This document shows positions 9,165 to 57,554 of a stretch of 64,000 nucleotides of DNA, piece by piece (position 1 is the first letter of the stretch; each line of letters opens with the position of its first letter). The DNA comes from Halalkaliarchaeum desulfuricum (GTDB lineage: Archaea; Halobacteriota; Halobacteria; Halobacteriales; Haloferacaceae): NCBI RefSeq assembly GCF_002952775.1, contig NZ_CP025066.1, forward strand, positions 1,984,001-2,048,000, written 5' to 3'. The position numbers were made by a program, and so were the translations under genes. A model generated the notes under the pieces. That model worked only from the letters and a program-made list of their open reading frames with translations, was not told where the DNA came from and made no database searches.

Positions 9165-9620
9165 ATGGTTACAGCCCAGCTACTCAGTGCGGTATTGATG
9201 GCCGGAGTGCTGATCGTCGTCTTCATGGCGGCGTCGCGTCGTGGCCAGAAGGCGGACGAGAGTTCGGAAGTGACGGGGCCGGGCGGCTGGCGCCGGCTGC
9301 AGGATCGCCTGCACGCGGCGGCCGACGATCCGGGGGTGCTTGCGCTTGGATTCCTGCTTTTGGCCGTCGGAATGGGACTGGGCGTCGTCGGGGCGGTCGG
9401 CGACGGCCTCGTCGAGGGGGTGCCGGTCGATCTGCTCGCAGTGGTGCTGGGGGCGACGCTTTCGCTCGTGCTCGTGGCGTACCTCTTTTGGGGAACGTAC
9501 GCGGCGAGTCGGCGTCGTGGGCTCGGCAACGCACAGGCCGTCGGGGTCGGGATCGGTACCCTGAGTCTGGTGTTCCTTGCCGTGATCGCTGCCCAGCTCG
9601 TGTTCGGCGTCGTCGGGTAG
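9165..9620 (+). CDS. four-helix membrane protein next to coxB
   Basis: A 151-residue protein with four predicted membrane helices: TAQLLSAVLMAGVLIVVFMA, LALGFLLLAVGMGLGVVGAV, LLAVVLGATLSLVLVAYLFW and VGIGTLSLVFLAVIAAQLVF. The loop between helices 1 and 2 is charged and cytoplasm-like (RRGQKADESSEV). The ATG at 9165 is preferred to an in-frame GTG at 9126 because TATAAG at 9121 would place transcription start after 9126. It is divergent from the oxidase operon, so a shared regulation or an assembly role is possible. I do not recognise a characterised family. Confidence 0.65.
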   Translation: MVTAQLLSAVLMAGVLIVVFMAASRRGQKADESSEVTGPGGWRRLQDRLHAAADDPGVLALGFLLLAVGMGLGVVGAVGDGLVEGVPVDLLAVVLGATLSLVLVAYLFWGTYAASRRRGLGNAQAVGVGIGTLSLVFLAVIAAQLVFGVVG

Positions 9621-47825: not shown

Positions 47826-49247
47826 ATGGGGTGTATGGGTGCGTCCAGGGGACAGTCCGCCGTCGTCGGGTACGTCATGGTGATCGGCCTGTCGCTTGCG
47901 GTCGTCGGCGTGGTCGTCGCGGTGGGGGCGGTGGCGATCGCCGACGTCGAGGAGTCCGCCCAGGCAAACCAGGCGGAGTCGGCGATGACGCAGTTCGACT
48001 CCACGGCTGCGGAGGTGGCGCTGGGGGAGTCGCCGAGACAGTCGATTCGGCTGGGTCAACACGGCGGTAGCGGTAGCGTCGAGGTCGACGAGAGTGCCGG
48101 GGAGATTACTGTCACGTGGATCGACGAGGACGACAATGAAACCAAGATTGCCGAAGACCAGTTCGGGAAAGTCGTCTACGAGTCAGGTGACCGGACAGTC
48201 GCCTACCAGGGTGGCGGCGTCTTCCGCGCCGAGAACGGCTGGAGCAAGATGGTGTCCCCGCCCGAATACCACTACCGCGACCGGACGCTGACGTTCCCGA
48301 TCGTGAAAGTCGAGGGCGACACGTCGGGGGCGTCACCCGGTGATCAGTTTACGATCAGCGAGTCCGAATTCGATCGTCACTTCCCGAACGAAACGCATAG
48401 CAATCCCCTCGAGGGTGGACACGTTCACGTTGAGGTGACCAGTGACTACCATCACGGCTGGAAGCAGTTCTTCGAGACCAGAACTGAGGGAAGCGTGACT
48501 CACGACCCGGCCAACCGGACTGTGTGGGTGAACCTGACGGTGCCGTTCGAGGAGCAGTTCGCAAACGGTGTTGCGACGACCTCCAACGATCCCGACGCAG
48601 TTTACACAGACGGGAATGCGTCGGGCGGCTTCGAGGATTCGGTGACCCAGGTTGATCGTCCGTCGGCCAGTCCGAATGTAGAGGAACGAATCTCCCACTG
48701 TGAAAGTGAGGATTGTGACGACCTGAATAGCACGCCGTTGGACAACGGCACGTATTACGCGGACAATGACACCTCTCTCTCAGGGGCCACCTACGACACC
48801 TCGGATGGGGACATCCAAGTCGTCGTCGACGGAGATCTGGAACTTGCCGAGGATCAACACAATGTGACCGGTGATGGGAAGGTTACGTTCTACGTCAACG
48901 GAAGTGTATCCGTAAGCGGGAGTACCGAGGTAAACCCCGATGGAAGCCCCGGAGACGTGGTATTGATGATGCACACTGACGCCGGAAATATAACTGTAAA
49001 TGGACAGGCACAGTTTACAGGATACATTTACGCTCCTGGTTCGGAACTGGAGATCCTCGGAGGTGGAAACCGTGACAACATCGTCGGTGCGGCCGTAGTC
49101 GAACGAGCTTACTCGAATGGAAACGGGAAATTGGTGCACGAACCTGACGAAGACTTCGAATTCGAATTAGACCGCGAGACGATTTCATACGTTACCTACC
49201 TCCACGTCACCGAAAACCGAATCGAGGTTTCGACCGCCGACAACTAG
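47826..49247 (+). CDS. exported pilin-like protein (DUF7289-like)
   Basis: A 473-residue secreted or cell-surface protein. The N-terminus SRGQSAVVGYVMVIGLSLAV is a type IV pilin-like signal: a charged Arg-Gly-Gln followed by a hydrophobic helix. The remaining part is acidic, rich in Asn-x-Ser/Thr sites (for example NETHSN, NRTVWVNLT, NASGG, NDTSLSG), which suggests N-glycosylation, and has long beta-type repeats towards the end (VVVDGDLELAEDQHNVTGDG). I recall this family as DUF7289. A TATTTAAT box lies directly before the ATG at 47826; the ATG at 47835 may be the true start. Confidence 0.65.
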   Translation: MGCMGASRGQSAVVGYVMVIGLSLAVVGVVVAVGAVAIADVEESAQANQAESAMTQFDSTAAEVALGESPRQSIRLGQHGGSGSVEVDESAGEITVTWIDEDDNETKIAEDQFGKVVYESGDRTVAYQGGGVFRAENGWSKMVSPPEYHYRDRTLTFPIVKVEGDTSGASPGDQFTISESEFDRHFPNETHSNPLEGGHVHVEVTSDYHHGWKQFFETRTEGSVTHDPANRTVWVNLTVPFEEQFANGVATTSNDPDAVYTDGNASGGFEDSVTQVDRPSASPNVEERISHCESEDCDDLNSTPLDNGTYYADNDTSLSGATYDTSDGDIQVVVDGDLELAEDQHNVTGDGKVTFYVNGSVSVSGSTEVNPDGSPGDVVLMMHTDAGNITVNGQAQFTGYIYAPGSELEILGGGNRDNIVGAAVVERAYSNGNGKLVHEPDEDFEFELDRETISYVTYLHVTENRIEVSTADN

Positions 49248-49692: not shown

Positions 49693-50139
49693 ATGGAATC
49701 GGCACTCGACCGGCACGTCACGCTGCGGCAGGTTCTGGCCCTGTTGCTGGTTGTTGCGATCGTCAGCCTGGTGTTCGGGATCGTTCTGGGCGGGCTGGTG
49801 GTCACTCCAGATCCGACAGAACCCGACGATCCACCGTCGCCGGCGGTGTTCTCGGCTCAATCACACGCCGACGAGGACCGGATCGTCTATACGTTCACAC
49901 CGGACTCGGAGATGCTTTTCCCGTATCGGGTGTCCTACGTCGTCTCCGAGAACGGAGCCGAGATCCAGCGGATCGACGAGAGAACGGAGAACCTCTCTGC
50001 CAGCGAGCCGCTGCGCGTCGAGATCGACGATCGGGTGCCGGATGCGGAGTACACGATCGAGATCTCGATCCGGGACGAACACGACCGCACCGTCTACGAC
50101 GCCCGGATCGTCGTCGGCCCGCTGTCGGATCAGGGCTGA
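49693..50139 (+). CDS. membrane-anchored exported protein
   Basis: A 148-residue protein with one N-terminal membrane anchor (LRQVLALLLVVAIVSLVFGIVLGG, positive residues before it) and an external beta-rich domain (VFSAQSHADEDRIVYTFTPD to IVVGPLSDQG). Pattern and length fit haloarchaeal pilin-like or Ig-like surface proteins. The ATG at 49693 is used although the frame is open further upstream through a gene fragment. The 3' end including the stop codon is duplicated. Confidence 0.6.
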   Translation: MESALDRHVTLRQVLALLLVVAIVSLVFGIVLGGLVVTPDPTEPDDPPSPAVFSAQSHADEDRIVYTFTPDSEMLFPYRVSYVVSENGAEIQRIDERTENLSASEPLRVEIDDRVPDAEYTIEISIRDEHDRTVYDARIVVGPLSDQG

Positions 50140-50175
50140 GTGGTGGGCCCGCTGTCGAATCAGGGCTGAGTGGTG
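50116..50175. repeat. 30-bp tandem duplication spanning a stop codon
   Basis: Two tandem 30-base copies (50116-50145 and 50146-50175), differing at one base (GTCGGATC against GTCGAATC). The first contains the TGA stop of the preceding gene; the second is in the spacer. The following 200 bases to the Tes gene hold no gene but a low-GC stretch with a TATA-like GCATATATC near 50279. Confidence 0.9.
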
Positions 50176-50389
50176 GTGGGTCCGTCTTTTTCGATATCAC
50201 TACCACAACAATTGAGAGATAGTTATTTAGCTGAGAGACGGAGGTTCCGGACAAGGCAGCATACTCCCCTAGCAAAACGCATATATCTTGATTGAACGAA
50301 AAACTAATTGTGAGTTTCGAATAGCTCCTCGAGAGCCCAGCTGCTCCCGACCGCACCGGAGATGAGGAAACCCAAACGCAGCACCCAAG

Positions 50390-52216
50390 ATGACCTCGAT
50401 TCGACATCGATCGACCGATCTCGAGGGGAAACGGAGTTCAACCACCGGTATCGAAGACCCGCTGGCGTTGGCGTCGGATCTCGCGCCGGACGCGGATCGG
50501 CACCTGAAAGTGACCGACAGCATGTGTCCGGAGTGCGTCGCAGAAGGGCAGTACGGGGAGATGACCGTCCCCATGGTAGTCTACGAGGAGGACGGCGAAA
50601 TCCGGCTGGCGAAAGAGTGTGAAGACCACGGAACCGTCCGGGACGTTTACTGGAGCGACGCCCACATGTATTATCGGGCCCGGGAGTGGGCCGAGTTCGA
50701 CGACCACCTCGACTCCCAGCACGTCACTCCGGATGACGGTGTCTCGTGCCCGACGGACTGTGGACTGTGTCCGCTGCACAAGTCACACACAGGGCTCGGA
50801 AACATCACGGTATCCAATCGCTGTGATCTCAGTTGCTGGTACTGTTTCTTTTACGCCCGGGAGGACGACCCGATCTACGAGCCGACGATCGACCAGATTC
50901 GAGAAATGGTGCGGTCGATGACATCCGAGGAGCCGATCGGCACCAACGCGATCCAGATCACCGGTGGCGAGCCCACGTTGCGTGACGACATCGTCGAGGT
51001 CGTCGAGGCGGTCGCCGAGGAGGTCGATCACATCCAGTTGAACACCCACAGTGGCCGTCTCGCCGGAAACGTGGACCTGGCGCGGGACCTGCGAGACGCG
51101 GGCGTAAACACGATCTATACCAGCTTCGACGGGGTCAGTCCGGAGACGAACGTCAAGAACTACTGGGAGATGCCCGAGGCGATCCGGACCTACCGGGAGG
51201 CGGACCTGCCGGTCGTTCTCGTGCCGACGCTCATCGGCGGGTACAACATCGCGGAGGTGGGCGAGATACTCAGGTTCGCGGCCGCAAATTCGGAGACGAT
51301 CCGGGGCGTGAACTTTCAGCCGGTGTCACTCGTCGGCCGGATGCCCGACCACGAACGACACGAACAACGGATGACGATCCCCGATGCGATCCACGCCATC
51401 GAGGAGGGAACTGACGGTCAAATTCCTGCAGACGCCTGGTATCCGATCCCGAGCGTCCTTCCAGTCTCGGAGTTCGCCAAAACCTGGAACGACGCCCCGC
51501 TGTATGAGCTCTCGAATCACTTCGCCTGTGGCATGGCGACCTACGTCTATGAGGACGGTGATTCCCTCGTCCCTATCACGGACTTCTTCGAGGTCGGCCC
51601 GTTCCTCCAGGCGCTCCGGGAGATCGCGGATGCATACGAGGAACCGTTGTCGAGATTCGAGCGGAGCCGGGTCGGTGCGCGGTTGGCCTGGGAACTCTAC
51701 CAGGCGGTCGACAGGGGTGCCCAACCCGAGAACGTCCAGATCGGGAAGTGGTTGCTCGAAGCGCTTACTGCAGGCACGTACGAGGGATTGGTGGAGTTCC
51801 ACGAGAACTCGCTGTTTCTCGGCATGATGCACTTCATGGACCCGTACAACTACGACGTCGATCGGGTGCAACGATGTGACGTTCACTACGGAATGCCCGA
51901 CGGTCGGGTAGTTCCGTTCTGTGCGTATAACGTCATCCCGGACCTGTATCGGGACACAACCCAAGAGGAGTACGCAGTGACGGCCGAGGAGTGGGCTGAC
52001 CGCGAGTATGCGACTCTCACCGACTCCGACGCGCCGGACCGAACACGACTCCGCTCGGAGATGGTCACGGGCCGCGAGGAGGACGAGGAGTTCCTCCGGG
52101 AAGGGCCGGGTATCTACGGGTACGACGTGAAACGACGCCGCAGGATCGACGAGGACGATCAGTCACGAATTCGTGAGACGTATCGTCGAGCTATCGAGGA
52201 TCTCGAACCGGTGTAG
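50390..52216 (+). CDS. radical SAM protein, tetraether lipid synthase (Tes)-like
   Basis: A 608-residue radical SAM enzyme. The [4Fe-4S]-SAM motif is CDLSCWYC (C145, C149, C152). Extra cysteines lie in CPEC (46, 49), C77 and CPTDCGLCPLH (C120, C124, C127), with ITGGEPTLRDD in the core. The CGLCPLHKSHT segment and extra clusters match the MJ0619/Tes family, which couples two archaeol chains into GDGT tetraethers or macrocyclic archaeol. Most haloarchaea make only diethers, so the actual product here is uncertain. The C-terminal 150 residues have CDVHYGMPDGRVVPFCAYN with further Cys. No partner genes are seen beside it. Confidence 0.75.
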   Translation: MTSIRHRSTDLEGKRSSTTGIEDPLALASDLAPDADRHLKVTDSMCPECVAEGQYGEMTVPMVVYEEDGEIRLAKECEDHGTVRDVYWSDAHMYYRAREWAEFDDHLDSQHVTPDDGVSCPTDCGLCPLHKSHTGLGNITVSNRCDLSCWYCFFYAREDDPIYEPTIDQIREMVRSMTSEEPIGTNAIQITGGEPTLRDDIVEVVEAVAEEVDHIQLNTHSGRLAGNVDLARDLRDAGVNTIYTSFDGVSPETNVKNYWEMPEAIRTYREADLPVVLVPTLIGGYNIAEVGEILRFAAANSETIRGVNFQPVSLVGRMPDHERHEQRMTIPDAIHAIEEGTDGQIPADAWYPIPSVLPVSEFAKTWNDAPLYELSNHFACGMATYVYEDGDSLVPITDFFEVGPFLQALREIADAYEEPLSRFERSRVGARLAWELYQAVDRGAQPENVQIGKWLLEALTAGTYEGLVEFHENSLFLGMMHFMDPYNYDVDRVQRCDVHYGMPDGRVVPFCAYNVIPDLYRDTTQEEYAVTAEEWADREYATLTDSDAPDRTRLRSEMVTGREEDEEFLREGPGIYGYDVKRRRRIDEDDQSRIRETYRRAIEDLEPV

Positions 52217-52295
52217 CAACTGACGAAGTGTGGACCTGCAGATCCTCAGGTGACGACCCAGAAGGGGAATTGCGGGGAGAAACGAGTCTGCGAGC

Positions 52296-54665
52296 CTACG
52301 AATCACCGGGACTGATTCGTGACAGACGGAGCGCGTTCCCGGTGACGGCAACCGTCATGCCGGCGTCGCCGATCAACACCGCCGCCCACACGGGTACCAG
52401 GCCGAACGGGACGCCAGCGGCCAGCGCCGCCTTCGCTGCGAGGCTCGACCAGATATTCTGTCTGATGACGCCGTTCGAGCTGTGAGACAGTTTATATAGG
52501 TATGGCAACCGCGAGAGGTCATCGCCCATGAGCGCGATGTCGGCTGTCTCGATTGCAGTATCGGTGCCGGCTGCACCCATCGCGATCCCCACGTCCGCTG
52601 TCGCCAGCGACGGGGCGTCGTTGACCCCATCGCCAACCATTGCGACGCGATCCCCCGCCTGCCTGAGCTCCTCGATCGCCGCGACCTTCCCCTCCGGGAG
52701 GAGCCCCGCTCGATACTCGTCAACGCCGACTTCGGAGGCGATCGCCCCCGCAGTCCGCTCGTTGTCGCCGGTGAGCATGACGATCCGACTGACTCCGAGC
52801 GCCCGGAGCCGGTCGACGGTGGCCTTCGCCTCCGGCCGGAGATCGTCGGCGACGGCGATCACACCCTCCAGCCCCGCTTCGGTGCCGACCAGAACCACCG
52901 TCTTGCCCTCCGACTGGAGCCGGGGAATCGTCTCCTCGAGCAGATCGAGACAGTCGTTTCGCTCGCAGATGCTCCGGCTCTTGGCGGTGACGACCCCACC
53001 GTCGGTGGCGGCGTGGACGTGGGTCAGGTCGAACCCGAGCTCCTCGAAGAGTCCGGGCTTGCCGGCGTAATGTCTCCGTTCGCCGACGGTCGCTTCGACT
53101 CCTTTGCCGGTGAGGCTCTCGAAGTCGCCGACTGGTGGTCGATCGATCCCACGGTCGGCGGCGTGCTCGACGATCGCCTCCCCGATCGGATGCTCCGACC
53201 GGGATTCGATCCCCCGGGCACACCGGAGGACGTCCGACTCGCTGTGGCCGTTCAGGGGGACGACGTCGGTGACGACCAGTTCCCCTTTCGTGAGGGTGCC
53301 GGTCTTGTCGAGGGCGATGGCGTCGATCTCACCCATCGTCTCGAGGTGATTGCCTCCCTTGATGAGGACGCCGTTCTTGGCGGCGCTGGTGATCCCGGAG
53401 ACGACCGAGACGGGCGTTGAGATGACGAACGCACACGGACATGCGAGCACCAGAAGCGTCAGTCCGTAGAGGAACCAGATCTCCCAGGCGCCCGGGAACG
53501 TGTAGCTGTAGCCGGCGAGAAGTTCGACAGTCAGCCCGTCGGCGATCAAAAGCGGCGGGACGATCGCCGTGAAGATCGCCAGCGCGACCACAATCGGGGT
53601 GTAATATCCCGCGAACCGGTCGACGAACTGCTCGCGCTCGGTCCTGTTCGCCCGGGCGGCCTCCACCAGCTGGATGATCCGCGAGAGGGTGTTCTCGGCG
53701 GCTTCGGCGGTGACTTCGACCTCCAGGTAGCCCGACTCGTTGATCGTGCCCGCGAACACCTCGTCGCCGGGCATCTTGTCTACCGGCACCGACTCGCCGG
53801 TGATCGGCGCCTGGTTGACGGCGCTTTCTCCGGCCTGGACGGTCCCGTCCATCGGGATCTTCTCGCCGGGGCGAACGATCGCGACGTCGCCGACGCGGAC
53901 GTCCTCGACGGGGATCGTGAGCTCTTCGCCGTCCCGCCTGACCGTCGCCTCGTCCGGCGAGAGGTTCAAAAGCTCCCGCAGCGAGTTTCGAGCCCTGTCG
54001 ATGGAGTACTGTTCGAGCAGTTCCGCCACGCTGAACAGGAACGAAAGCAGCGCCGCCTCCAGGTACAGCCCGGCTCCGAAGCCGAAACTGGCGAGCAGCG
54101 CGCCGATGATCGCGATCGAGATCAGCAGGTCGATGTCGAGACTCCGGTTTCGGGCCGAATAGTATCCGTTTTTGAGGATGGTCTCCCCGGCGGCCGCCGT
54201 CACCGCGAGGAACAGCAGATCCGCAACCAGGAGGTCCCGTCCCAGCACGGCGAGGATCTCGGCGTTCGCCCCCGACATCGGGAACTCGACGAGCAGCCCG
54301 ACGAGCGCGAAGATTCCGCTGACCCACGTTTTGATCGCGCGCTCGCTCCACCAGACGCTGTCGGGGTCGGTGATTACGCGGTTCGTTCCGTCCCCGTCCC
54401 GGTGGTCGCCGTCTCCGACGCCCGGGATCGGAACCGACGAGTCGACGATGTTGTAGCCCGCACCTCTCACGGCGTCGGCGATCTCCGATGGCGACCATTC
54501 GTCGGGGTCGTACCGGACGATTACCTTCCCAGCAGTCGGGCGGGTTTCGTAGGCGACGCCACCGAGTCGGTCGAGGGCGTTGGAAACCTTGCCGGCACAC
54601 GATGGACAGTCCATCTCCGGGACCTCGAGTTCGAGGCGTTCGGTCCCGTCGTCTACGGTAGTCAT
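52296..54665 (-). CDS. Zn2+/Cd2+-type P1B ATPase
   Basis: A 789-residue heavy-metal ATPase. HMA domain with MDCPSC (C20, C23) at the N-terminus, metal-site ACPCAFVIS near 407, DKTGTLT near 451, GDGVNDAPSL near 675 and the terminal DAGMTVAVTGNALRL near 764. The Asp in the last helix (as in Escherichia coli ZntA) indicates Zn2+, Cd2+ or Pb2+ export rather than Cu+. It is thus functionally distinct from the copper-type ATPase at 14.6 kb. It is convergent with the Tes-like gene. Regulator not seen nearby. Confidence 0.9.
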   Translation of the reverse strand: MTTVDDGTERLELEVPEMDCPSCAGKVSNALDRLGGVAYETRPTAGKVIVRYDPDEWSPSEIADAVRGAGYNIVDSSVPIPGVGDGDHRDGDGTNRVITDPDSVWWSERAIKTWVSGIFALVGLLVEFPMSGANAEILAVLGRDLLVADLLFLAVTAAAGETILKNGYYSARNRSLDIDLLISIAIIGALLASFGFGAGLYLEAALLSFLFSVAELLEQYSIDRARNSLRELLNLSPDEATVRRDGEELTIPVEDVRVGDVAIVRPGEKIPMDGTVQAGESAVNQAPITGESVPVDKMPGDEVFAGTINESGYLEVEVTAEAAENTLSRIIQLVEAARANRTEREQFVDRFAGYYTPIVVALAIFTAIVPPLLIADGLTVELLAGYSYTFPGAWEIWFLYGLTLLVLACPCAFVISTPVSVVSGITSAAKNGVLIKGGNHLETMGEIDAIALDKTGTLTKGELVVTDVVPLNGHSESDVLRCARGIESRSEHPIGEAIVEHAADRGIDRPPVGDFESLTGKGVEATVGERRHYAGKPGLFEELGFDLTHVHAATDGGVVTAKSRSICERNDCLDLLEETIPRLQSEGKTVVLVGTEAGLEGVIAVADDLRPEAKATVDRLRALGVSRIVMLTGDNERTAGAIASEVGVDEYRAGLLPEGKVAAIEELRQAGDRVAMVGDGVNDAPSLATADVGIAMGAAGTDTAIETADIALMGDDLSRLPYLYKLSHSSNGVIRQNIWSSLAAKAALAAGVPFGLVPVWAAVLIGDAGMTVAVTGNALRLSRISPGDS

Positions 54666-54782
54666 CTATCGACGCTTGGGGACGGGGTCTTATTAATCGA
54701 GCTATTATCGCTTAAGTACTCATTGTTAAATCCCGGTTGTCCGCAGGCGATTGAGCGAAGCGAACGATCGCGGTTCAGGTTG

Positions 54783-54801
54783 ATGTACGCCCGGAACACT
54801 A
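54783..54801. repeat. 19-bp exact direct repeat (copy 1; copy 2 at 57232-57250)
   Basis: ATGTACGCCCGGAACACTA occurs here and at 57232-57250 in the same orientation. The first copy is 36 bases before the left end structure of the IS605-type element. A shared remnant of a mobile element is the simplest reading. Confidence 0.8.
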
Positions 54802-54836
54802 CCTGGCGAGTTTCTACAGAGAAAGCAGGCAGAGTG

Positions 54837-54911
54837 CCTCGGGGTCGTCCGAAAATCAGAGATTTTCGGGATCACGAGAATCTCCGATTCTCGAACGACT
54901 TGACCCCGAGG
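54837..54911 (+). other. three-stem structure at the left end of the IS605-type element
   Basis: Outer stem CCTCGGGGTC (54837-54846) with GACCCCGAGG (54902-54911); hairpin 1 CCGAAAATC with GATTTTCGG (54849-54869, loop AGA); hairpin 2 CGAGAATC with GATTCTCG (54875-54893, loop TCC). Junction bases GT, GATCA and AACGACTT. All stems pair without mismatch. It is followed by GGGTGAATGCCGTAAGC and the end of tnpA. Confidence 0.7.
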
Positions 54912-54930
54912 GTGAATGCCGTAAGCTCTA

Positions 54931-55235
54931 TTAGACGTGTTCAGTACGTTCGATATACTGTTCAATCGTCTGGCTAGATACCTCACCAGCCGTTCCAATG
55001 TAGTACGACTCTTCCCAGAATCCACCACCCCAGAAGTAGTTTTCCAAAAGAGATTCGTGTTGCTGCCACATCTCTCTGGCTGTACTGCTCTTGATTTTCC
55101 GTGCAATCTCGCTCGGGGAATTCTTCGGATGTGCTGAAACAAACAGATGTACGTGGTCGGGCGAGATATGCAACGATAATATCTCGTAGTTGTACTCGTC
55201 ACACACCTCTCTGAACGATGTATCTAACGACTGTT
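54931..55235 (-). pseudogene. tnpA: IS200-type transposase TnpA, 5' truncated
   Basis: About 95 C-terminal residues remain, from FREVCDEYNYEILSLHISPD to YIERTEHV. The HUH motif is HVHLF and the catalytic tyrosine is in EESYYIGTAG, so both active-site parts persist. The N-terminal third (the usual YNLNYHIVW-type strand) is gone: just upstream the sequence joins tnpB on the other strand. The reading frame runs on to an ATG at 55296, but those residues are antisense to tnpB. Without the missing beta strand the protein is unlikely to fold. Confidence 0.82.
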
Positions 55236-56140
55236 CTATCGGCACTGCTGAGGCACTTGTTCGAGATGGACGCGAAGAATTGCACGTCACCGTCACGAAT
55301 GAAACTGCTGAAGTTGGGACACAAACAGCGGCAGAAACGGTTGTTGGCGTCGATATTAATGAAGACTGTGTTGCGCTGGCGGCACTGACTGAACACGGAA
55401 TCGAAGACTCAATTGTTCTCGACTACCCGGAAATCAAGGAACAACGCCACCGCTACTTCACGATGCGGAAGCGGATGCAGGAAGCCGGACAGACTGCGTT
55501 CAACGGCGTGTTCCGCGACAAGGAGCAACGGTTCGTTCACGACCAGCTACACACGGTTTCACGGCGTGTAGTCGAGTGGATTCAGCGGTTCGACAGTCCC
55601 GTGATTGTCTTTGAAGACCTCAAAGACATGAGAGACGACATTGAGTACGGGACTCGAATGAACCGCCGTCTTCACTCACTTCCGTTCGCCAAACTTCGGG
55701 ATTTCATCACGTACAAGGCCGCATGGAAGTGTATCCCGTCAGATGACGTTAACCCTGAGTACACCAGCCAACGGTGTCCGGTCTGTGGACACACAGAGCG
55801 AGCGAACCGCCACAAGAAGCGGTTCAAATGCTGTGAGTGCAAACATCAAGACCACGCTGACCGTGGTGCTGGTATCAGTGTCGCGCAGAAGTGGCTGAGA
55901 AAGCAAGCGGACAGAAATGTGCCTGCTCTCAACACACTCCCGCAGGTGCGGAAATGGGAGTTGCGACGGCAGGCATCGGGGCCTGTGGACGGCCCGACCG
56001 TGACCCACCACACCGTTGAAGGCCATCAGACCGAGGGTGTGTCGGGTGTGTCCGACCAATCCACGGGAAGAAGCTCCGGGGTCGTACGGAAGACACAGTC
56101 TTCCGTGATGACGAGAGACGAAGTCTCTCGAACCACTTGA
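55236..56140 (+). pseudogene. tnpB: TnpB nuclease, 5' truncated
   Basis: About 300 C-terminal residues remain. The RuvC-like catalytic residues are present: Asp in VVGVDINEDC, Glu in VIVFEDLKDMRD and Asp in DHADRGAGIS, together with the zinc finger CPVC...CCEC. The N-terminal 150 or so residues (WED/REC part) are lacking, and the frame begins in the sequence joined to tnpA. TnpB is an RNA-guided nuclease whose guide RNA arises from the 3' end of its own gene, which here forms the three-stem structure ending at 56149. The stop TGA is part of that structure. Confidence 0.82.
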
Positions 56141-56149
56141 CCCCGGAGC
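56073..56149 (+). other. three-stem structure at the right end (tnpB 3' end)
   Basis: Outer stem GCTCCGGGGTC (56073-56083) with GACCCCGGAGC (56139-56149); hairpin 1 ACGGAAGAC with GTCTTCCGT (56086-56106, loop ACA); hairpin 2 CGAGAGAC with GTCTCTCG (56112-56130, loop GAA). Junctions GT, GATGA and AACCACTT. It has the same stem lengths and junctions as the copy at 54837-54911 and overlaps the tnpB stop codon, where TnpB guide-RNA scaffolds normally lie. Confidence 0.72.
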
Positions 56150-56220
56150 AGCTCACTAGTAGTCTTGGTAATCCGTTCCGAAGACGGCCCTACCGCTGAT
56201 CCCCCAATAGTATGTACCGA

Positions 56221-56469
56221 TCAGAGAATCTCGTCGATCCAGTCACACCACGACTGAAAATCGTTTGCACCACACTGAGTAGCGATGCTGCGTAATGTGT
56301 CACCACTGATTTCTTTTCCCATTGGAATCGTCACGTTCCGAACTTCTCCGGTTTCTGGATGTATGTATCGAAGTTTCAGATGACTACCAGCTCGGTCTAC
56401 AGGCTGGTACCCCATCTCTGTGAGAGCGTTCACGAGTTCACGGGATGAATACGGGGGAGCCACAGTCAC
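56221..56469 (-). CDS. hicA: HicA-like mRNA interferase toxin
   Basis: An 82-residue protein of the HicA/YcfA dsRBD-like fold. The catalytic His is in DRAGSHLKLRYIHPETG, and VTIPMGKEISGDTLRSIATQ is the usual second half. HicA toxins cleave mRNA. The start overlaps the upstream hicB by four bases (ATGA), so the order is antitoxin then toxin. The long C-terminal end (ANDFQSWCDWIDEIL) is unusual for short HicA but not rare in haloarchaea. Confidence 0.82.
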   Translation of the reverse strand: MTVAPPYSSRELVNALTEMGYQPVDRAGSHLKLRYIHPETGEVRNVTIPMGKEISGDTLRSIATQCGANDFQSWCDWIDEIL

Positions 56470-56741
56470 TCAGAGAACCAGGGGGCATCAGGTTCGCGTT
56501 GCTCGTCCGGAACTGTATCTGGGTCGAGTCCCAGGTCGCGCAGATCGGCGTCGGTTACTGGCTCACCGATTTCTCCGTTGTGCAACGCGACTGCTTCATC
56601 CAAATTCACCAGAGCTTCAGAACGAGTTTCGCCCTGACTGGCCACACCAGTCTCTTCGTCGATGGCTGACCACTCTCCGCCTTCCTCTTGGACGAGACGG
56701 ATTTCACGTCGTGGTGTCTCCGGAGCGTCAGCTTTAGCCAT
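56466..56741 (-). CDS. hicB: HicB-like antitoxin
   Basis: A 91-residue protein with the partial RNase H-like HicB fold: REIRLVQEEGGEWSAIDEET and GVASQGETRSEALVNLDEAVAL, then an acidic tail ending DEQREPDAPWFSE. It has no separate DNA-binding domain. It would bind and block HicA. The ATG at 56741 (MAKADAPETP) is used; an in-frame ATG further upstream reads through non-family sequence. Together with hicA it lies right beside the IS605-type remnant. Confidence 0.78.
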   Translation of the reverse strand: MAKADAPETPRREIRLVQEEGGEWSAIDEETGVASQGETRSEALVNLDEAVALHNGEIGEPVTDADLRDLGLDPDTVPDEQREPDAPWFSE

Positions 56742-57554
56742 ACGGCTATGTAGGTCCAATAGCGACAAAACGCTTCGGGAACGTGTTGTCACAGACAAGC
56801 GGGGATACTCAACTCGACGTCTGATTGATTATTTTCCTATCTTTGTGAGTTGACTCCACGAACCACAAACAGGTGGGGGCCCCCGACATTTACTGAAATT
56901 CTGCTGATTTGGTCATCTCTCAGCGTCAATCCTGCTGTGAGATGCGCACCTCTCCTTAGGATTCTAAAAGATACAGCGAGAGTTCCACGGGTCACCTGAC
57001 CCGTGGGTGAATCGCGTACGCTCCTCGCTGTAATCCACAGTTTTTGTTGTTTCAGTCCGTTAATTCAGGTAGGAACTCACCGTTAACAACCTCTCAAAAC
57101 CCACGCACTGAAACATGGTAAGACGTGGTGAGACGGGTGGTGTCGAGCCCGAGTAAAGGGGCTGACCTTCACGGACACAGCGGGAACGCCGGTCGTGGCC
57201 ACATGGCGAACGAAGCGCTAAGTGAGCCATAATGTACGCCCGGAACACTAACGTCCGGTCTCATCTCCGGCGGCGTGCCGCGTCGACCGGGAAACCCTCG
57301 TGCCGGGCGGTCCGCTGTGTGCCGCGGACGCGCTGTCGCGTGCCCGGGTTCGTCGCACTGTCATCGCACCCGTCCGGGTGAACTCGGGCGAGGACTTGAG
57401 GCACGCACTTATCGGTTGGTCTCCCGGCGCTTTACCTGTTTTGTCTGTCGGGCTCACGGAGAACCCCCGCGTACGTCCGATCGCGGAGGGCGTTCGAACG
57501 GCGATTTCGACGCGAACCCGAACCGACTTATGTCCCTGTAGCCCAGGTTAACCA
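56742..57554. other. 813-base stretch without a credible gene
   Basis: Short frames on both strands here lack family similarity and have Arg/Ser/Thr-rich antisense composition. Contents that can be pointed out: a GGGGGCCCCC palindrome near 56875, a nested hairpin at 56973-57031, a 19-bp repeat shared with 54783-54801, and a TATA box (GACTTATGT, 57525-57533) for asd. Part of it probably comes from decayed IS200/IS605 elements. No tRNA or known ncRNA is recognised. Confidence 0.5.
56973..57031 (+). other. nested hairpin resembling the IS605 left end
   Basis: Outer stem ACAGCGAG (56973-56980) with CTCGCTGT (57024-57031), inner hairpin CCACGGGTCA (56985-56994) with TGACCCGTGG (56997-57006). The bases after the inner hairpin, GGGTGAATCGCGTACGC, resemble GGGTGAATGCCGTAAGC after the structure at 54837-54911. 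It is likely a solo end of another element of the same family, lacking the two inner hairpins. Confidence 0.5.

Follow-up and report, generated by a model that had tools for sequence, protein, structure and literature searches.

Locus and gene content

The window analysed here is a 64,000-nucleotide stretch of the Halalkaliarchaeum desulfuricum genome, and at positions 50390-52216 on the plus strand it contains an open-reading frame of 608 aa with an ATG start, which HMM, phmmer, residue mapping and structural modelling mark as tes, the gene for a tetraether lipid synthase (Tes), of the type that we designate class A haloarchaeal Tes. To its left lies a 148 aa gene that has no family match (49693-50139, plus strand), to its right a heavy-metal P-type ATPase gene of the CopA/ZntA type by Pfam (52296-54665, minus strand), and in alignment both are syntenic in a congener (genome G318), which has ~86% DNA identity around the tes site. 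The intervening segment (50124-52295) is absent from this congener: window positions 50123 and 52296 correspond to positions 9539 and 9494 of its locus L152, which places the flanks 45 bp apart as against 2.17 kb here. Within the genus tes is a single-gene cassette, and the empty site, resting as it does on two genomes, fits either gain in H. desulfuricum or loss in the congener. It is also a lone gene in function, as lipid genes are absent beside it (no ferredoxin, no geranylgeranyl reductase), and in two other haloarchaea (G052 and G224, see below) the class A genes are flanked differently, by a thioredoxin gene and a NurA-domain gene. One gene away from tes, a further segment absent from the congener (54729-57237) carries a TnpB-like open-reading frame (55190-56140) and similarity to IS200/IS605 TnpA. 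On the other side, the gene at 47826-49247 encodes a DUF7289/DUF7305 protein that weakly matches an ice-binding-like adhesive domain, and its 3' part does not align to the congener, the break falling between 48580 and 49158.

The GC content of tes is 61.3% against 65-67% in the adjacent genes, with a GC3 of 78% against 80-88%. The encoded protein is acidic and lysine-poor as is typical of haloarchaeal proteins (19.2% D+E, 9.0% K+R, 1.3% K), and between class A genes third-position differences are 1.9-2.6 times as frequent as second-position differences. Such a composition, together with constrained codons, makes tes unlike a fresh or decaying import, and the codon pattern indicates selective constraint on class A in three haloarchaeal lineages. 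Assembly contamination is unlikely since the gene lies inside a single 3.31 Mb contig with flanks syntenic with the congener. Plasmid-borne copies were likewise sought, and a search of 72,556 plasmids gave no class A-type match, only distant ones of 24-31% identity.

Family assignment and predicted fold

The product scores 685.7 bits against the NCBIfam equivalog model for Tes (NF045702, curated cut-off 450 bits), aligning to profile positions 2-485 of 486, and phmmer aligns residues 29-536 with MJ0619 (7TOL) at E = 1.9e-111. Pfam matches comprise the radical SAM core and an N-terminal ribbon, PF23545, whose name derives from the former methylase annotation of MJ0619. An AlphaFold2 model built on an alignment of 40 sequences reached a pLDDT of 85 and a pTM of 0.88, with long low-confidence stretches limited to residues 1-16 and 543-582. 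Foldseek returned 7tom and 7tol as the best matches to this model (TM 0.91-0.92 of target, E 2.1e-53 for 7tom), with MoaA as a runner-up far behind (E 5e-10), and the predicted structure has the Tes fold. By HMM, structure and residue tests, the open-reading frame encodes a full-length Tes, which bears out the initial annotation in its assignment to the Tes/MJ0619 family; the same full-length match, fold and residues rule out a chance motif.

Another radical SAM enzyme that resembles Tes, either TrsS-like or a pterin methylase as in the old annotation of MJ0619, would be very improbable. TrsS (NF045646) is the next distinct curated family and PF23545 still carries the methylase name, but the TrsS score of 282.6 bits falls far short of the family's cut-off of 490 and the best-matching stretch spans only part of the protein, whereas the Tes match and fold are full-length. 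For MJ0619 itself, Lloyd et al. 2022 (PMC9433317) state that the methylase activity was not reproducible and that the pocket is unsuited to a pterin, and we rejected both identities on these grounds. Grouping with another radical SAM clade had been named earlier as the outcome that would speak against Tes; in the phylogeny (below) the protein groups inside Tes.

Metal sites and catalytic residues

We compared the protein with MJ0619 at the metal ligands and catalytic residues described in PMC9433317, and all 21 of the 21 positions checked by alignment are identical. A rubredoxin-like iron site is formed by C46, C49, C77 and H80 (residues 46-80; 50525-50629, plus strand), equivalent to C9, C12, C33 and H36 of MJ0619. 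The extra cysteine cluster pointed out in the initial annotation, CPTDCGLCPLH (residues 120-130; 50747-50779, plus strand), proved to be the motif of the N-terminal auxiliary [4Fe-4S] cluster, with C120, C124, C127 and H130 aligning to C73, C77, C80 and H83, and is separate from the radical SAM CX3CX2C motif, CDLSCWYC, that Pfam and the alignment place at residues 145-152 (C145, C149, C152; 50822-50845, plus strand). The SAM-loop residues Q310, S313 and R317 correspond to Gln268, Ser271 and Arg275. In the region of the C-terminal auxiliary cluster (residues 380-511; 51527-51922, plus strand) the alignment recovers C380, C496 and C511, together with M480, the equivalent of the labile Met439, and Y500, that of the strictly conserved Tyr459; the three cysteines of this cluster and the histidine of the N-terminal one are assigned from alignment position and conservation, Met439 alone being numbered in the sections of PMC9433317 at hand.

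Similarly, 108 non-haloarchaeal Tes share 109 near-invariant columns (conservation of 95% or more), and the H. desulfuricum protein keeps 100 of these and deviates at nine, whilst the other two class A proteins keep 105 and 104 (92-96% across the class). Both the model and the alignment reveal a linker specific to haloarchaeal Tes at about residues 543-582 (52016-52135, plus strand), of low model confidence, and after it a well predicted C-terminal helix (588-603) whose position agrees, by eye, with the C-terminal tails of Thermoplasmata Tes.

Three classes of haloarchaeal homologues

Only four of 391 Halobacteria genomes passed the Tes cut-off, with weaker matches in 16 more, and extending the census through the remainder of four families brought the total to an estimated ~500 haloarchaeal genomes. 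Judged by their residues, the haloarchaeal homologues split into an intact class A, a class B that has lost ligands and a TrsS-like class C, a division that is new. Class A comprises the gene studied here and those of G052 and G224, three of ~500 genomes, all intact, with all ligands kept and 66-69% mutual identity, the two other genes being 67-69% identical to that of H. desulfuricum. Class B, at 41-47% identity to the H. desulfuricum protein (BLAST), is of Halorientalis type and also occurs in uncultured Halobacteriales; its carriers are G304, G763, QS_8_65_32, Halorientalis marina, G727, G728 and G809 (loci L004, L069, L087, L139, L140, L143 and L185). These proteins retain the radical SAM motif, the ribbon and Tyr459, and keep 73-76% of the near-invariant columns, yet they carry serine in place of C338 and of C470 in the C-terminal cluster and arginine or lysine in place of Met439, and Cys77 and His83 of the N-terminal cluster are gone; the N-terminal columns depend on the alignment, whilst the loss of the C-terminal cluster is clear. 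Class C has 28-31% identity to the H. desulfuricum protein, keeps ~50% of the near-invariant columns, lacks the N-terminal cluster ligands, has valine at Tyr459 and threonine at Met439, and scores best to TrsS (339-358 bits, below 490).

Class B does look retuned, unlike class A, and may represent a previously undescribed radical SAM enzyme: with the C-terminal cluster absent, the C-S bound intermediate proposed for Tes could not form. Tes homologues were reported in 20 Halobacteria genomes, including Halobellus clavatus and Halorientalis regularis, with unclear function (Zeng 2022, PMC8941075), and from our classification the species named there would carry class B or C, in one case argued from the genus. 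The same paper cites both species as having no GDGT, and class B in Halorientalis is a likely reason for the missing lipids. Two class B proteins barely exceed the Tes cut-off of 450 (452.5 and 454.7 bits) and so pass the HMM without the ligands; predictions of GDGT for them from the HMM are therefore probably wrong.

Phylogeny and origin

In a 79-row IQ-TREE phylogeny, classes A and B group in a single clade (support 100/100), with class A at 99/93, nested in Tes beside Thermoplasmatota, Aenigmatarchaeota and Hydrothermarchaeota (99/99) and away from Methanosarcina, MJ0619 and Archaeoglobi; the branch to this clade is long (0.70 changes per column) and the program flagged compositional bias in the haloarchaeal rows. 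The resemblance between the haloarchaeal C-terminal helix and the tails of Thermoplasmata-type Tes is in keeping with this place. Constraining classes A and B to group with Archaeoglobi and relatives was rejected (AU p 3.5e-5), which argues against vertical inheritance within the phylum and, with the tree position, indicates that the gene is foreign to haloarchaea. Most likely, then, tes reached haloarchaea from an external source rather than being inherited from the methanogen side of the phylum.

A constraint linking classes A and B to the long-branch Tes of G417 (L024) was not rejected (AU p 0.21). G417 is a small non-methanogen genome (1.2 Mb) of the same phylum in which mcrA was not found, and its acidic Tes lies on a long branch near those of haloarchaea and Thermoplasmata; identifying G417 could settle whether haloarchaeal Tes predates the class. 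Within class A, the H. desulfuricum gene groups with that of G224 (99/91). Transfer among haloarchaeal families was considered from the gene tree versus taxonomy and dropped, as an alternative that keeps the two genes from one family (f4) together stands (AU p 0.08).

Genome setting

Further gene content suggests that the host is capable of anaerobic growth. A [NiFe] hydrogenase operon (L187 7587-12623, near 611600-616600 of contig C1) encodes a small subunit with a Tat signal, cytochrome b, a maturation protease and HypC, from which we infer that the host probably uses H2. The host also encodes a sulfur/DMSO-reductase-like molybdopterin oxidoreductase that bears a Tat signal and whose best model is the thiosulfate reductase PhsA, below cut-off. 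With hydrogenase and molybdopterin reductase together the host may live without oxygen, a requirement for an enzyme that carries three [4Fe-4S] clusters.

Radical SAM matches number 19 in this genome, one of them an anaerobic sulfatase maturase. The B12-binding radical SAM family TIGR04190 (Ta0216), found in eight of 391 haloarchaea, is present twice, at C1:609764-611287 and 1928721-1930259 (L176 and L183), and the hydrogenase operon directly adjoins one such gene. Two copies occur only in H. desulfuricum and in G052 (C1:810669-814199; L175 and L182), both class A carriers, so a shared origin or function with class A tes is possible. We dropped this suggestive link because G224 has Tes without TIGR04190 and the congener G318 has one TIGR04190 copy without Tes.

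Proposed function

We think it likely that tes is a laterally acquired, functional tetraether synthase that works in its host. By the mechanism described for MJ0619 in PMC9433317, a 5'-deoxyadenosyl radical would abstract hydrogen from one saturated phytanyl tail at its terminal carbon, the C-terminal [4Fe-4S] cluster would then hold that tail through a C-S bond, and the radical of a second tail would attack it to form an sp3-sp3 C-C bond. Coupling within one archaeol would yield macrocyclic archaeol, coupling between two GTGT/GDGT, and C45/C50 products would be possible if the host has C25 (extended) archaeol. By analogy with characterised enzymes, the best reading is that a working Tes here would yield macrocyclic archaeol, GDGT/GTGT or both. 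Production may be confined to oxygen-free conditions, and activity would probably be limited to anoxic growth, given the oxygen sensitivity of the clusters and a host that encodes a [NiFe] hydrogenase and a molybdoenzyme. The missing adjacent lipid genes are no obstacle, since Methanococcus maripaludis expressing Tes by itself formed GDGT, GTGT and macrocyclic archaeol (PMC8941075), although the Tes homologue MA_1114 gave only traces of macrocyclic archaeol on expression (PMC8941075), so that homology need not imply high activity. Speaking against a working synthase are also the nine near-invariant columns at which the protein deviates and the lack of GDGT in the Halobacteria strains recorded by Bale 2019 or in the citations of Zeng 2022, none of which is known as a class A carrier. 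We rate the chances of finding the products under accessible conditions as about even.

The same chemistry might instead serve another partner, the enzyme being retuned for C20-C25 extended archaeol, cardiolipin-type tails or menaquinone/polyprenol tails and making a novel cross-linked lipid. Haloarchaeal lipids are unusual and include C25 chains and cardiolipins (PMC6423904), the branch to classes A and B is long, and MJ0619 binds head groups nonspecifically (PMC9433317), so that other lipids could enter; we nevertheless regard this as unlikely, as class A keeps the catalytic residues and a share of the Tes-invariant columns far above that of class B. It is distinctly unlikely, in our judgement, that the gene is silent or dispensable, a lateral acquisition that is unexpressed or productless in a mostly aerobic haloarchaeon. 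Its rare and patchy distribution, its absence from the congener, the nearby IS200/IS605-type element likewise missing there and its lower GC content would all fit such a gene, as would the fact that GDGTs have so far gone undetected in the class: Bale 2019 (PMC6423904) examined nine Halobacteria strains and found GDGT in none. Against it, three intact and diverged copies with haloarchaeal composition and constrained codons point to long residence under selection.

Returning to a working tetraether synthase, a wider proposal is that a few haloarchaea produce macrocyclic or membrane-spanning lipids, without precedent in the class, by means of a Tes gained from a Thermoplasmata-like source, whilst the Halorientalis-type sister, having lost two auxiliary clusters, would be a different radical enzyme; we would put this proposal as a whole at evens. 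If it is true, and C25 archaeol serves as substrate, extended tetraethers are possible.

Comparison with known systems

This kind of enzyme is already known, and what is new is an intact Tes in a class thought to be without such lipids, alongside a degenerate sister class. The protein shares with MJ0619/GDGT-MAS of Methanocaldococcus jannaschii (7TOL, 7TOM) its fold over ~510 aligned columns at 38% identity, all four metal sites, the Gln268/Ser271/Arg275 SAM loop, Met439 and Tyr459, but at 608 aa against ~500 aa it is longer, with an extended N-terminus and the additional linker, it is acidic, and it lies distant from MJ0619 in the Tes tree. It belongs to the same family as the Tes of Methanosarcina acetivorans and Sulfolobus acidocaldarius (PMC8941075), and a Methanosarcina-like copy (L135) has identical cluster ligands; unlike these it is a lone accessory gene, and it does not share vertical descent with the methanogen copies. 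TrsS (NF045646) and class C have in common with it the radical SAM core and the rubredoxin-like ribbon, whereas class C differs in lacking the N-terminal cluster ligands, Tyr at Tyr459 and Met at Met439, all present here.

The closest comparison is with the homologues of Zeng 2022, which come from the same organism class. The Halorientalis type, class B, is sister to class A, yet of the two only class A keeps the equivalents of C338, Met439, C470, Cys77 and His83. This split offers a reason why homologues reported in 2022 came without matching lipids, warns against naming GDGT producers by HMM match alone, and provides a natural series for the role of each auxiliary cluster. Three near-complete haloarchaeal genomes with an intact Tes represent a sharp test of the view that the class is without such lipids.
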